This document shows, piece after piece, positions 4,629-59,542 of a stretch of 64,000 nt of DNA. The DNA is from Aromatoleum buckelii. GTDB taxonomy: Bacteria > Pseudomonadota > Gammaproteobacteria > Burkholderiales > Rhodocyclaceae. The stretch lies in the NCBI RefSeq assembly GCF_012910785.2, contig NZ_WTVH02000008.1, forward strand, positions 744,001 through 808,000, in the 5' to 3' direction. The position numbers were made by a program, and so were the translations under genes. The notes beneath the pieces were generated by a model. That model was not told where the DNA came from. It worked only from the letters and a program-made list of their open reading frames with translations, and did no database searches. The first letter of the stretch is position 1. Each line of letters begins with the position of its first letter.

Positions 4629-5677
4629 TGATCGATCGGCTCCTGATCCGCCTACTGCTGATTTCGCTGGCGCTTGTCGCGGCCGGAATCGCGCACGCGG
4701 AACTGCCCACCGTCCGCGTTGAAGCTCGCGTCGTGGCGCGCTCGCACCCGGCCGAAGCGACGCTCGAAGCGGTTCACCAGGTCGCGCTCGCGGCGCAGGT
4801 GCCGGGCCGCATCGTCGCCCTGAACGTCGATGCCGGCGATCGGATCGCGAAAGGCGAAGTGCTGTTGCGTATCGACGCCGTCGAGGCGGCGCAGGCCGTT
4901 GCGGGCGCCGAAGCCGGCATCGCCGAGGCGCAGGCGAACCTCATCAATGCGAAAGCGGCATTGGAGCGCACTGCGCGTCTGCTCGAGCGCCGCTTCGTCA
5001 GCCCTGCCGCGCTCGACCAGGCGAAAGCGGTATACGACGCCGCCGAAGCGCAGCTGCGCGCGGCACGCGCTGGGCGCGGCCAAGCGGGCGCGGTGCAGGG
5101 TTACACGGCGATCGTCTCGCCCTTGACGGGGCTCGTCGCCGCGCGCCACGTCGAACTGGGCGACATGGCGCAGCCCGGGCGCGTGCTGCTGACCGTCTAT
5201 GATCCGGCAGCGATGCGCGCGATCGTCGACGTGCCGCAATATCGCATCGCCGGCGTCGCCGGAGAGCAGCTGACGGCGCGCATCGAGCTGCCGGAGTCGG
5301 GGCGCTGGTTCGACGCGGCGCGCGTCGTCGTGCTGCCCGCGGCCGACCCGCGCACGCATACGGTCCGCGTGCGTGTCGATCTGCCGCGGCAGGCGGACGG
5401 GCTGGTGCCGGGAATGTTCGCGCGCGTCCATTTCGCGACCGGCGCGGACCGACGCATCGCGGTTCCGGCCGAAGCGATCCTGCGGCGCGGCGAAATCACT
5501 GGCGTATATGTTGCCGACGGCAAAGGCGGCTTCGGCTTGCGGCAGATTCGCGCCGGCCAGGCATTGGCGGACGGCAGCGTCGAAGTGCTCGCCGGGCTCG
5601 TCGGCGGCGAGGAGGTCGCGCTCGATCCGGTCCAGGCAAGCATCGCCGGCCGTGCCACCCGCGCCGCGAGCCGCTGA
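4628..5677 (+). CDS. RND efflux periplasmic adaptor (HlyD/AcrA type)
   Basis: A 349-residue membrane-fusion protein. It has a short signal peptide (LLISLALVAAGIAHAEL), a biotinyl-lipoyl-like half (VPGRIVALNVDAGDRIAKGE) near residue 60, a coiled-coil hairpin at about 85-145, the second lipoyl half (TAIVSPLTGLVAARHVELGD), then beta-barrel and membrane-proximal domains. It links the inner-membrane RND pump encoded 13 bp downstream to an outer-membrane channel that is not encoded here. The ATG at 4628 is within the dyad operator, consistent with tight regulation. Substrate unknown; the pump sequence is not of the heavy-metal CzcA type as far as I can judge. Confidence 0.88.
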   Translation: MIDRLLIRLLLISLALVAAGIAHAELPTVRVEARVVARSHPAEATLEAVHQVALAAQVPGRIVALNVDAGDRIAKGEVLLRIDAVEAAQAVAGAEAGIAEAQANLINAKAALERTARLLERRFVSPAALDQAKAVYDAAEAQLRAARAGRGQAGAVQGYTAIVSPLTGLVAARHVELGDMAQPGRVLLTVYDPAAMRAIVDVPQYRIAGVAGEQLTARIELPESGRWFDAARVVVLPAADPRTHTVRVRVDLPRQADGLVPGMFARVHFATGADRRIAVPAEAILRRGEITGVYVADGKGGFGLRQIRAGQALADGSVEVLAGLVGGEEVALDPVQASIAGRATRAASR

Positions 5678-55738: not shown

Positions 55739-55914
55739 TGGTGTCGGGGCGCCGGGAATGTGCAGTTCGGCCGAAATTCTACCGCGCGCGGCCCCGCAAA
55801 TGCGCCGGCAATGCCCCGTTTCGGTCGATGCGGAGTGATCCCTGCGGCCTGGCCTCTTCATGCACGGTCCGCCGGGCCGTTTCTCGGCGTGCGCCGGCAA
55901 GATCGCCCGGTGAC

Positions 55915-57591
55915 CTAGAACTGTTCCAGCCGCACCGGCCAGCCGCGGCGTCGGCAGACGCGTACGACGTCGCTGGCGAGGGCCGCCGGTCCGCAGACGA
56001 AGCAGGTGGGACGCCGGCTCTGGACGGCGATTTCGGCGGCGAGCGTCGACCAGTCGGGCATGCCGCTGCGCAGCCTCACTCCCGGCTCGCCCTGAACGCG
56101 CTCCAGCCACACCGGCGGGCGGCCATCTTCAGGCAGATCGGTGAGGTAGAAGTACCAGTGGCAGCGGATGTCCCGGCGCTCGCACAGGCGCTCGACCAGG
56201 GGGCGCACCCATTCCAGCAGCGCCGGCTCGCGCACCATCCAGACCAGGTGGAATTCGCGGTGCATCCCGGGCTCGCGCAGGATTTCCCGGATCAGGCCGA
56301 GGAAGGGTGTGACGCCGATGCCGCCAGCCACCAGCACCCATTCCCCTGTCTTCAGCGCATGGGCCACCGGACTGGCGTAAGGTCCCCGCAGATCGACCTG
56401 CAGTGTGTGCTCGGTCTTGCCGGCCAGCGTCGCCTGCAGGCGACCGGTCCAGTCGCCACTGCAGCGGATCTTGAGTACCACCGAGTCTCCTTCCGCCGTC
56501 GGACGCTGGCCGGTGAGGGAGAACTCGTGCCATTCCTTGCGCGACAGGGCGGGAATGCGCAGCCGCACGTAGTGGCCGGCGCGCAGGATCATGCCTTGGG
56601 GGCGATCGATCTCCAGGCGCACCACGTTGCCTTCCAGGGGGGTCAGCCGGGCGATGCAGTCGCGATAAAGGTGATGGCGGCGGGAAAGGTAGAGTTCGGC
56701 CGCCAGCCCGACCAGCGGCAGATAGATCCACTCCAGGCTGGGGATGTGCAGCAGCAGAAGGGCGGCGAACAGGTAGCCGAGGCGGTGGATGCGCTGGAAC
56801 AGGTGATGATGCCGGCGGCGGAAGTGCTTCAGGGAGAAGATCCATAGCGCCGCCCCGAGGACGAACAGCACGAGGCCGCTCATGTTGATGCGGAATTGGC
56901 GCGACTGGATGTTCTCTCCGGTCCAGGAAGCCGCCTCCGCGTAATTGGTGATGGGCATCCCGGGAATCGCGTAGGTCTGGGTCGACGAGCTGCTGTGGCA
57001 CTTGCCGCACTCATCCTTGATGAAATACCCCAGTTCCGCCTCGTACATGTCCTTCGGCATGCCGGCGGCGATCCAGCGCTCGGTGATGTCGATGTACTCG
57101 TCGTCGCTGACGAACTCGTACATCGTGGTGCGCATGGCGCGCAGCAGATCCGGCTCACGGCCGAAGAGGATGTCGGTGAAGGGGGCGTTGAGGGTCGTGA
57201 AATAGCCCAGGTAGTTCGCGCCATGCACCAGGGCGAGGGCGATGAACAGGTGGCCGAGCCAGCGGTGGACGGACTTGGCCTTGTCCAGCGGCAGCCCCTC
57301 GCCCAATCGGGAGCGGCGCAGCGCCGAGACGGCATGGCGCATCACCGGCAGCCACAGGACGGCAAGCACCACCAGGAGGGACCAGGCGGTGCCCCGGGCG
57401 AGCCGCATGGGCAGGTTCGTGGTCTCGTTCGACTGGTAGATGAAGCCGAGGTAGAACTGGGCGACCAGGGCGGCGCTGAAGAGAAGCAACCAGGGGATGC
57501 CCGACCACAGGTTGTGGCGCGCAGTGAGCCGGCCCGGACGCCAGCCTCCCGGCGCTGCAGTCGAGACGGCGAGTATGTTGCGGGTATTCAT
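55915..57591 (-). CDS. NOX/ferric-reductase-like flavocytochrome b with embedded heme-c motif
   Basis: A 558-residue membrane oxidoreductase. Two bis-histidine pairs for b hemes are visible: H109/H123 (HRWLGHLFIALALVHG) and H269/H282 (HRLGYLFAALLLLH). Between these helices lies a roughly 110-residue loop, probably extracytoplasmic, with ECGKCHSSS (C195, C198, H199), a CXXCH heme-c attachment site. The C-terminal half is an NADPH-ferredoxin-reductase-type unit: HEFSLTG (FAD), GGIGVTPF and FVCGP (NAD(P)H). It should pass electrons from cytosolic NAD(P)H through FAD and b hemes to the outside. The substrate is unknown; iron is suggested by the Fur-box promoter. It lies 78 bp downstream of its partner gene. 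Confidence 0.82.
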   Translation of the reverse strand: MNTRNILAVSTAAPGGWRPGRLTARHNLWSGIPWLLLFSAALVAQFYLGFIYQSNETTNLPMRLARGTAWSLLVVLAVLWLPVMRHAVSALRRSRLGEGLPLDKAKSVHRWLGHLFIALALVHGANYLGYFTTLNAPFTDILFGREPDLLRAMRTTMYEFVSDDEYIDITERWIAAGMPKDMYEAELGYFIKDECGKCHSSSSTQTYAIPGMPITNYAEAASWTGENIQSRQFRINMSGLVLFVLGAALWIFSLKHFRRRHHHLFQRIHRLGYLFAALLLLHIPSLEWIYLPLVGLAAELYLSRRHHLYRDCIARLTPLEGNVVRLEIDRPQGMILRAGHYVRLRIPALSRKEWHEFSLTGQRPTAEGDSVVLKIRCSGDWTGRLQATLAGKTEHTLQVDLRGPYASPVAHALKTGEWVLVAGGIGVTPFLGLIREILREPGMHREFHLVWMVREPALLEWVRPLVERLCERRDIRCHWYFYLTDLPEDGRPPVWLERVQGEPGVRLRSGMPDWSTLAAEIAVQSRRPTCFVCGPAALASDVVRVCRRRGWPVRLEQF

Positions 57592-57669
57592 GCTGGCAAG
57601 CCTCCTGGTCGGAGCGGGCGTGAACGGTTCCCGGTACCGGCGCCGGCATGCCGGCGCCGGCGCTCGGTC

Positions 57670-58719
57670 TCAGCGCTTGAAGGTGAAGGCGACGGCTTTC
57701 TTGTGGAACAGGTGGTTGATCTGGGCGTGGTCGAAAATGGCCAGGCCGAAGTGGTAAGTCCTGGCCAGGTCGGCAAATTGCACGTCCTGTTCGGTCGCTC
57801 CTTCCCCTGCGGTGACGCGCTTGCGCTTGATCTCCAGCGTCCAGTAGCCGTCCTTCCACACGCCTTGGGCCGCGATGTCGGCCCGGGAGCCTTCGAAGCC
57901 GCGGGCGACGATGCCGTTCACCCTGTCCCCCGGCTTGAAATCGTCCTCGAACGCGACCTTGGTCGGCTCGGCCACCAGATGACGGTGCCGGGTCACCTTG
58001 GCGCCGTTCATCCAGGCCGGCAGCTTGCCGTCGGCGCTCTTGTTGTCATAGTAGCCGCCAGTGCCGACGTCGCTCTTGCGCCCCCACTCCTTGTTCTCCT
58101 GCCGGCTGGCGTCCACGTACTGGTCGTCGGCGAGGCCGACGGGACCAGTGCGGGTCGATTTCCAGTGCCACATATCCACCGTTTCACCCTTGCTCCTGGT
58201 GTAGTGGCGACCGGCGGATTTGTCCTCGACGCCTTCGATCAGACCGTTCTCGGGCAAGTGGCAGGACATGTCGCAGCCCTTCTTCTCGAAACCCTTCTGA
58301 TCGATGTTCCAGAACAGGGAGACTTTGTCCTCGTACCATTGGTTTTCATGGCCGGTGCTGTCCTTGTTCATCATCTGCTTCCAGCTGCCGTCGGCCTGCT
58401 TGATCCACGGAAAGCGCTGCAGGCTCTCGGTCGGGTCCTCGTAGCGCAGCAGGAAATAGACGTGCTCGTCGTCGTGGAGGGCGCGCAGTTCCGCCTCCGT
58501 GTCCTTGATTCCGTCATAACCGCTACTCGGCTTGTAGGGCAGTTCGTTGAGGGTCAGGGTAAGCGGGACAGCCTTGCTCCAGGCCTTGTCCGGGACGCCG
58601 TCAATGGCGATCGGCTGATCAGTGCGGAAGGACTGGAGTTGTAGCGGGGAGGCGGCCTGGGCGCCGGTCGCGCCGAGCAAGGCAGACAGGGTCAGGACGA
58701 GGATATCCGGTTTGTTCAT
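57670..58719 (-). CDS. Exported protein resembling the ethylbenzene-dehydrogenase-type heme domain
   Basis: A 349-residue exported protein with a signal peptide (DILVLTLSALLGATGAQAAS). The mature protein has the beta-rich layout seen in heme-b subunits of ethylbenzene/DMSO dehydrogenase-type enzymes (FRTDQPIAIDGVPDKAWSKA near residue 35, VYFLLRYEDPTES near 88, VGTGGYYDN later, and a C-terminal FGLAIFDHAQINHLFHKK). A GCDMSCHL segment gives CX3CH (C149, C153, H154), an unusual spacing for covalent heme. It is the first gene of the Fur-box transcript and probably a periplasmic electron acceptor of the downstream flavocytochrome. No molybdoenzyme subunit is present. Confidence 0.75.
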   Translation of the reverse strand: MNKPDILVLTLSALLGATGAQAASPLQLQSFRTDQPIAIDGVPDKAWSKAVPLTLTLNELPYKPSSGYDGIKDTEAELRALHDDEHVYFLLRYEDPTESLQRFPWIKQADGSWKQMMNKDSTGHENQWYEDKVSLFWNIDQKGFEKKGCDMSCHLPENGLIEGVEDKSAGRHYTRSKGETVDMWHWKSTRTGPVGLADDQYVDASRQENKEWGRKSDVGTGGYYDNKSADGKLPAWMNGAKVTRHRHLVAEPTKVAFEDDFKPGDRVNGIVARGFEGSRADIAAQGVWKDGYWTLEIKRKRVTAGEGATEQDVQFADLARTYHFGLAIFDHAQINHLFHKKAVAFTFKR

Positions 58720-59071
58720 CGACTCTACTCCGGGAGATGAGTTGGCTCCGATTGACGGCGCATGGCGACATGCAGCGCCGCGGAGTTGCGGGGGAGGAGA
58801 GTCGGGGAAGCCACAGGCCATCTTCCGCTCCTGCCTCGGCGAGGCTGCGTCAATGGCTGGCGGAAGGCAGGGCATGCCTGCTGGCTGGCTGGCTGGCGAT
58901 CCCGCGCTGGCGGGGTCATCTATCATAACAACGATAATGATAATGAGTCGCACTATCGTATGCAAGCGTTGAGCTGCCACTATGCCGGAGAAATGGTCCT
59001 TGCTGTGTGCAAGCAGGGACTACAACACCGACAGAGCACGCTGGGAGGTCGCGGCAATCGTTAGTGTGGTG
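58720..59071. other. Gene-free regulatory stretch upstream of the redox module
   Basis: About 350 bp between the exported protein and rlmH with no credible gene. It holds the Fur-box promoter (58933-58965), a CTGG tetranucleotide repeated about four times near 58880-58896, and a low-GC patch at 58920-58960. Short open frames are present but lack family resemblance. Confidence 0.5.
58933..58965 (-). promoter_or_regulatory. Fur-box promoter of the redox module
   Basis: The 19-mer at 58933-58951 (GATAATGATAATGAGTCGC) fits the Fur consensus at 15 of 19 positions, with its first 12 exact. On the minus strand it covers a -10 (TATCAT, 58942-58937) that lies 17 bp from TTGCAT (58965-58960). Repression in high iron is therefore expected. 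The leader would be about 200 nt. Confidence 0.65.
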
Positions 59072-59542
59072 CTACTCGCGATGATAGGGATGATTTTTGA
59101 GCACGCTCCACGCGCGATACAACGCTTCGGCAAGGAGCGGGCGGACCAGTGCATGCGGGAGCGTCAGGCTCGACAGGCGCACCCGCTCGTGCGCCGTCGC
59201 CTTCAGCGCGGGGGACAGTCCGTCCGGGCCGCCGACGATCAGCGCTACGTCCTCGCCGCCGGCCTGCCAGGTTTCGAGGCGGCGTGCGAGCGCCATCGTC
59301 GTCAGGTCGGTACCGTGCTCGTCGAGGATCACGCGCCGACAGCGCGCCGGAAGCGCCGCTTCGATGCGCGTCGCTTCGGCCGCCATCATCGCGTCGACGG
59401 TCTTGCCGGTCGTGCGCGGCTCGGCCTTCACTTCGACGAGTTGCAACGGCAATTCGCGTGGCATCCGTCGCGCGAATTCACCGAAACCGGCTTCGACCCA
59501 TGCAGGCATGCGCGTGCCGACGGCGACGATCAGCAGCTTCAT
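59072..59542 (-). CDS. rlmH: 23S rRNA pseudouridine-1915 N3-methyltransferase
   Basis: A 156-residue SPOUT methyltransferase. It starts [18 protein letters not shown]; the knot includes [20 protein letters not shown] and [25 protein letters not shown], ending NHPYHRE, the invariant RlmH terminus. It methylates pseudouridine 1915 in 23S rRNA. It belongs to the conserved nadD-rsfS-rlmH block; the following maf is displaced by 3 kb. Confidence 0.95.

Follow-up and report, generated by a model that had tools for sequence, protein, structure and literature searches.

A Fur-linked gene pair of Aromatoleum buckelii joins a NOX-type flavocytochrome with a heme-c-like loop to an exported EB_dh protein, most likely for ferric-siderophore reduction

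By analogy, the closest functional parallel of the gene pair described here is the CYBDOM ferric reductase CRR of Arabidopsis, which consists of DOMON and cytochrome b561 parts: a membrane cytochrome b passes electrons to an extracytosolic heme domain, and the protein reduces ferric iron (PMC10784552; papers are cited by their PubMed Central numbers). The PepSY reductases FoxB and HiuB are inner-membrane heme proteins tied to a TonB-dependent transporter, the hiu operon is also linked to Fur, and periplasmic reduction of siderophore iron has been proposed for them (PMC13001220). MsrQ is described as the sole prokaryotic protein with a ferric reductase domain (FRD) that has a clearly identified physiological function (PMC11031084). 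Here we report two adjacent genes in a 64,000-nucleotide stretch of the A. buckelii genome ("the window" throughout), one for a NOX-type flavocytochrome, P0001, and one for an exported heme-protein candidate of the EB_dh family, P0002. Among the literature matches listed, no title or abstract opening describes a NOX that bears heme c or is partnered by an EB_dh protein; most subscription journals lie outside these matches, so this is weak evidence that no such description is in print.

We give a probability of about 55% to the reading that the pair is a Fur-linked, horizontally acquired two-gene electron-export unit, most likely for the reduction of ferric siderophores. The initial annotation, made from the letters of the window, had placed two neighbouring minus-strand genes in 55915-58965, and they are indeed there: the P0002 gene (58719 to 57670) comes first, followed after 78 bases by the P0001 gene (57591 to 55915). 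Three things were absent from that annotation, namely the CX3CH motif of P0002, the absence of the cassette from near relatives, and the resemblance of the P0001 loop to a borrowed domain. The features are as follows.

57670 to 58719, minus strand: P0002, an exported EB_dh-family protein of 349 residues, with a signal peptide recognised by eye, CX3CH at residues 149-154, and conserved H154 and H336
55915 to 57591, minus strand: P0001, a NOX5/DUOX-type flavocytochrome of 558 residues, with a heme-c-like domain in loop C
56893 to 57201, minus strand: loop C insertion of P0001 (residues 131-233), which holds C195-X2-C198-H199 and shows homology to a CXXCH domain in the membrane protein of locus L044
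58933 to 58951: Fur-box-like site, 15/19 against the palindromic consensus, with overlapping matches of 14/19 at 58939 and 13/19 at 58927
58768 to 58896, minus strand: leader from the Fur-like site to the EB_dh start, conserved more than the stretch upstream of it
55798 to 59038: inserted cassette of ~3.24 kb between maf and rlmH; the empty site is seen in 7 of 13 genomes, and the other 6 are uninformative

In the proposed mechanism, P0001 would use its FAD to accept electrons from NAD(P)H in the cytosol and pass them across two membrane hemes b in the fashion of a NOX, and a heme c in its periplasmic loop C would then receive them in place of O2. The exported P0002, probably carrying covalent heme on its CX3CH with H154 and perhaps H336 as His ligands, would accept electrons from the loop C heme c and hand them to a periplasmic acceptor, most likely a ferric siderophore imported by TonB-dependent receptors; Fe(II) would thereby be freed. 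From sequence and context, we consider it quite probable that electrons run from NAD(P)H through FAD, two hemes b and one heme c to the heme of the periplasmic EB_dh protein, and the siderophore-reduction step an even call. Domain content, ligand spacing, two heme-c-like motifs, topology signals, the pairing in two genomes, iron-uptake surroundings in one of them and a Fur-like site can be read from the sequences; we infer heme attachment, docking of P0001 with P0002, the direction of flow, the acceptor and iron induction. A path from NAD(P)H through FAD, heme b and heme c to a periplasmic carrier had already been proposed in the initial annotation; its order fits the sequence, and the interpretation as a whole is partly supported.

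P0001 scores above the Pfam cut-offs for Ferric_reduct, FAD_binding_8 (PF08022, 6.5e-10) and NAD_binding_6 (PF08030, 3.7e-13), and both Pfam and PDB alignments show NOX-type FAD and NAD(P)H domains at the C-terminal side of one chain with the membrane part. Its PDB homologues are DUOX1, csNOX5, NOX5 and NOX2, with csNOX5 and DUOX1 nearest. The alignment with csNOX5 has few gaps across transmembrane helices (TM) 1-3 and into the start of loop C, the C-terminus aligns with the csNOX5 end, terminal Phe included, and the GGIGVTPF sequence is as in DUOX1. The candidate heme ligands, H109/H123 (spacing 14) and H269/H282 (spacing 13), make up bis-His pairs on TM3 and TM5; the NOX2 heme ligands, 101/115 and 209/222, have the same spacing of 14 and 13 (PMC3591440). 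The ligand spacing and the three Pfam domains bear out the earlier description of a flavocytochrome with two bis-His pairs and FAD and NAD(P)H motifs. Compared with csNOX5, DUOX and NOX structures (PDB 5o0t, 5o0x, 6wxr, 6sz5), P0001 is alike in its FRD with two bis-His pairs and in its FAD and NAD(P)H domains, but it has a heme-c-like domain in loop C, lacks the His of the O2 pocket and is encoded directly downstream of a gene for a heme-protein candidate.

The ~100 residues between TM3 and TM4 contain C195-G-K-C198-H199, the CXXCH that had been noticed at first sight, and C195, C198 and H199 are all kept in the sole close homologue, a 79%-identical relative in a Thauera sp. metagenome-assembled genome (MAG; locus L009). 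A heme-c-like domain in this loop is unusual, as had been claimed: more distant NOX such as csNOX5 have short loops without it (PMC11031084). Because loop C has 8 K/R and 16 D/E, compared with 7 and 2 in cytosolic loop B and 6 and 0 in cytosolic loop D, we place it on the extracytosolic and not the cytosolic side. Motifs of c-type cytochromes are therefore found twice on the predicted periplasmic side, as CXXCH in loop C of P0001 and as CX3CH in P0002 with its signal peptide.

Taken alone, loop C matches no family in Pfam or NCBIfam. A profile of the membrane part found a match in 1 of 343 other Pseudomonadota genomes, the 256-residue protein of locus L044 (E 8.9e-6 for that genome), and the similarity of this protein to P0001 is limited to loop C and the helix after it. 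The two loops align with 29% identity, and both have the CXXCH preceded by WI..G and followed by P, P, T, Y and E. A loop-only hidden Markov model gives the L044 protein 21.6 bits, compared with a best of 11.2 among 5000 shuffles in which CXXCH was kept and a best of 8.0 among 5000 plain shuffles. The loop is thus homologous to an independent CXXCH domain and therefore looks like a heme-c domain common to another membrane protein; to judge by these alignments, loop C of P0001 looks like a borrowed domain. No second copy of it was found in the A. buckelii genome or in four others. A triheme cytochrome c, with three CXXCH counted by eye, is encoded ~0.5 kb away from the L044 gene. Small membrane proteins with the CXXCH domain are encoded at L044 (1258-2028, minus strand) and L045 (2322-3143, minus strand), with no Pfam or NCBIfam family over the cut-off.

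P0002 matches PF09459 at 2e-44 (152.9 bits, cut-off 33.3), and this match and the signal peptide agree with its earlier description as an exported protein like the heme subunits of ethylbenzene dehydrogenase (EBDH). Its CX3CH (C149-D-M-S-C153-H154) sits at a conserved His position, and because of this P0002 is probably c-type too, with heme attached covalently. In a 12-row alignment (A3; L021 and L013 omitted), position 154 is His in 11 rows and position 336 in 10. The EBDH gamma subunit and NXR-C each hold one heme b with Met and Lys ligands (Met155 and Lys305 in NXR-C) and are parts of molybdenum (Mo) enzymes (PMC8840923, PMC8387239), and for this reason H154, and perhaps H336, are only predicted as ligands of P0002. 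A profile built from relatives of P0002 picks up NXR-C (2.3e-16) and, weakly, EBDH gamma (0.19). These proteins thus share the EB_dh family with P0002 but differ from it in their Met/Lys heme b and Mo-enzyme partners, whereas P0002 has CX3CH with candidate His ligands and no adjoining Mo genes. We rejected P0002 as the gamma subunit of an EBDH-like Mo enzyme (type II dimethyl sulfoxide reductase), since no genes for Mo or Fe-S subunits adjoin it; in the window it lies among the NOX gene, rlmH and maf, and in L009 among genes of iron-uptake type.

CX3CH is found in 7 of 14 distinct P0002 relatives (P0002 counted), and the seven without it are five fusions of cytochrome b561 with EB_dh, a short protein (L011) and a partial one (L013). 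We read this distribution as the gain of a covalent motif at, or its loss from, a heme-ligand site. In all five fusions (L020, L021, L025, L026, L028) the EB_dh domain comes after cytochrome b561, and the hosts belong to two families outside the class of the window. In every case Fer2 and FAD domains are encoded by the next gene, where an NAD-binding domain also passes in four of the five. Other Pseudomonadota thus appear, from their sequences, to encode a comparable chain from other parts, a b561-EB_dh fusion and a flavin reductase, and such fusions may be a bacterial equivalent of the CYBDOM ferric reductases. The A. buckelii pair is built differently from both of the described systems with which we began. 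CRR has b561 and DOMON in one chain and depends on ascorbate (PMC10784552), whereas the pair has separate genes, a NOX-type core and membrane part, an NAD(P)H domain, a heme-c-like domain and a separate partner. FoxB and HiuB belong to an unrelated family, and Pfam gave no PepSY match in P0001 or P0002 up to an E-value of 0.1.

Further EB_dh relatives show other arrangements. The L027 gene (4701-6266, plus strand) encodes a single chain in which an EB_dh part with CX3CH is joined to a cytochrome c domain, and near it lie two open reading frames with several CXXCH (by eye). The Thauera MAG has two more relatives, L013 and L014 (385-2079, plus strand), and L014 has both CXXCH and CX3CH. Inspection by eye showed no redox partner next to the EB_dh genes of L024 and L010, an argument against a partnership that is fixed across the EB_dh family.

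The cassette is rare: among the genomes searched, P0001 was found in its own genome and in L009 only. L009 is the one relative among contigs of 84,980 species genomes, searched by exact 8-residue patterns, which distant relatives may therefore escape. With cut-offs of 1e-10 to 1e-20, P0001 was found in its own genome alone among 61 (itself and 60 relatives, 16 of the same genus), and likewise in 1 of 369 genomes of the class, 1 of 398 of the phylum and 1 of 395 of the family, these three sets overlapping. In viral contigs 49 stretches matched the patterns but none of them held P0001, and plasmids gave one partial match to its FAD/NAD part and none to its membrane part. In L009 the EB_dh gene (79% identity) again precedes the P0001 homologue by 78 bases, with order, spacing and both motifs kept, so the two genes occur together in the only close homologue's locus. 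That pair is surrounded by two TonB receptors, two FecR, two ECF sigma factors and a PepSY_TM gene.

In the window, the pair sits between maf and rlmH (Pfam Maf and SPOUT_MTase). Among 13 genomes (that of L009 and 12 of the 16 from the same genus), RlmH adjoins Maf with 69-127 bases between them in 7, compared with 3337 bases in the window; in the remaining 6, RlmH lies outside the stretch fetched. The L009 genome itself has the empty site between RlmH and Maf, and its pair is located elsewhere. One near relative (L030) matches the window through 55797 and resumes at 59039, another (L029) matches through 55797 and resumes at 59050, and these breakpoints define an insertion of ~3.24 kb. It has 65.1% G+C, with flanks at 67.6 and 68.0%. 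The 7-base direct repeat CGGCAAT at both ends of the cassette (55806 and 59052) is a possible trace of insertion or a chance match; on our own estimate, it is about as likely as chance would give for stretches of that size. The best reading of these comparisons is that the pair is a horizontally acquired, mobile two-gene cassette.

A single Fur-box promoter ahead of the pair had also been proposed. The window's best match to the Fur consensus, a 19-base palindrome, does lie there (15/19 at 58933). A scan of 58600-59100 found no sigma-70 promoter. The next best matches in the 64 kb, at 14/19, are one overlapping site and two sites elsewhere in the window. None of 30 simulated 64-kb sequences reached 15/19 and one reached 14/19; in simulations with local composition, 3 of 2000 reached 15/19. 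The leader of ~130 bases (58768-58896 on the minus strand of the window, 4708-4836 on the plus strand of L009) is 76.6% identical over ungapped columns, compared with 82.6 and 82.5% for the genes, 65.3% for the gap between them and 48.1% for the stretch upstream of the Fur-like site. As a candidate for a known or stable RNA the leader was rejected, with no Rfam match over the cut-off and folding z-scores of 0.82 and -0.79. The site suggests that the pair is Fur-linked and may respond to iron. Because of this site and the L009 neighbourhood, we favour a role in iron assimilation.

The outside EB_dh loci bear on the first alternative, in which the EB_dh protein feeds another periplasmic enzyme under low iron, for the reduction of nitrogen oxide, sulfoxide or peroxide, as a respiratory or repair supply. 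We consider this unlikely. The closest outside EB_dh relative (L023, 48%) lies beside two multiheme cytochromes c, one of them NrfB-like with five CXXCH, the other small and of cytochrome c3 type; the L011 relative adjoins a cupredoxin gene; and no iron-uptake neighbours were seen in the parts examined of the outside loci (the fusions, L023, L027, L011, L024 and L010). At L023 (6832-9013, minus strand) the EB_dh protein has CX3CH, and the adjoining small cytochrome also shows one CX3CH. MsrQ, which is also known as YedZ, offers a precedent. It is an FRD membrane protein that supplies a periplasmic partner (PMC11031084), as P0001 would, though it differs in having one domain, and its partner MsrP is a molybdopterin enzyme. 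Against such a supply stand the TonB receptor, FecR and sigma factor surroundings in L009 and the Fur-like site, and no enzyme of this kind was recognised adjoining the pair in the window or in L009.

The second alternative is a true NADPH oxidase that delivers electrons to O2 and makes periplasmic superoxide, with the heme c and the EB_dh protein as accessories or superoxide scavengers. P0001 keeps R66, in an RG motif, aligned with an Arg of csNOX5 and DUOX1 that we take to be the Arg of the O2 pocket, and its nearest PDB relatives are oxidases of this kind, csNOX5 and DUOX1. The pocket of eukaryotic NOX and DUOX has a conserved His and Arg, to which animal NOX add an Asn, with two residues between it and the His (PMC11031084). 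The His, four residues past the outer TM3 ligand in csNOX5, DUOX1 and NOX5, is not kept in P0001: its position falls on Y127 in the gap-free alignment with DUOX1 and NOX5, or on N126 in the gapped one with csNOX5. The bacterial SpNOX lacks the pocket residues and yet produces superoxide (PMC5676040, PMC11031084), so this loss makes the oxidase less likely rather than impossible. In favour of the electron-export reading, SpNOX reduces cytochrome c directly (PMC5676040). A heme-c-like domain above the outer heme and an adjoining heme-protein gene favour a protein acceptor, and superoxide production by P0001 is disfavoured; we regard the oxidase as distinctly improbable. It is very improbable, finally, that the pair serves heme acquisition, with the EB_dh protein carrying heme in the periplasm and P0001 reducing the heme iron for release or transfer: Candida takes up heme via ferric-reductase-related proteins (PMC9635878), solved EB_dh-family members bind heme (PMC8840923, PMC8387239), control is Fur-like and the L009 receptors could be heme receptors, but CX3CH suggests covalent heme, which would fit an electron carrier rather than a shuttle.

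Several points weigh against the electron-export unit for ferric siderophores that we prefer. Its support comes from sequence and gene context, models of P0001 and P0002 from two-row alignments gave unusable structures (predicted local distance difference test scores of 41.1 and 27.7), and the conservation of the pair rests on two sequences, since there is one close relative only. Directly beside the pair in the window lie maf and a gene for a SPOUT methyltransferase (rlmH) rather than iron genes; L009 has only a weak Fur-like site, at 12/19, with another 12/19 elsewhere in that locus. The TonB receptors of L009 are known by family alone, not by substrate, and L009 already has a PepSY_TM protein able to serve as siderophore reductase. 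SpNOX reduces Fe(III) only via superoxide (PMC5676040), and a multi-heme machine is a costly answer, in iron, to iron starvation.

More tentatively, and at somewhat less than even odds, the pair may define a new class of NOX whose O2-reducing site has given way to a cytochrome c domain borrowed from elsewhere and inserted in loop C. A b-b-c wire would then lead from NAD(P)H to the periplasm and feed a diffusible EB_dh carrier of c-type, by which ferric siderophores would be reduced. Such a class, put together independently out of NOX parts, would be a bacterial counterpart of the cytochrome b561-DOMON ferric reductases of eukaryotes, and would have spread as a Fur-controlled two-gene cassette. 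For bacterial NOX proteins, the pair points to a candidate protein acceptor in the adjoining gene and to a heme-c relay within the enzyme itself, so that the question of their acceptors becomes directly testable. If the proposed chain is true, periplasmic reduction of ferric siderophores gains a defined cytosolic electron donor, and the pair would show a route from NOX oxidase to electron exporter by the insertion of one domain in one loop.

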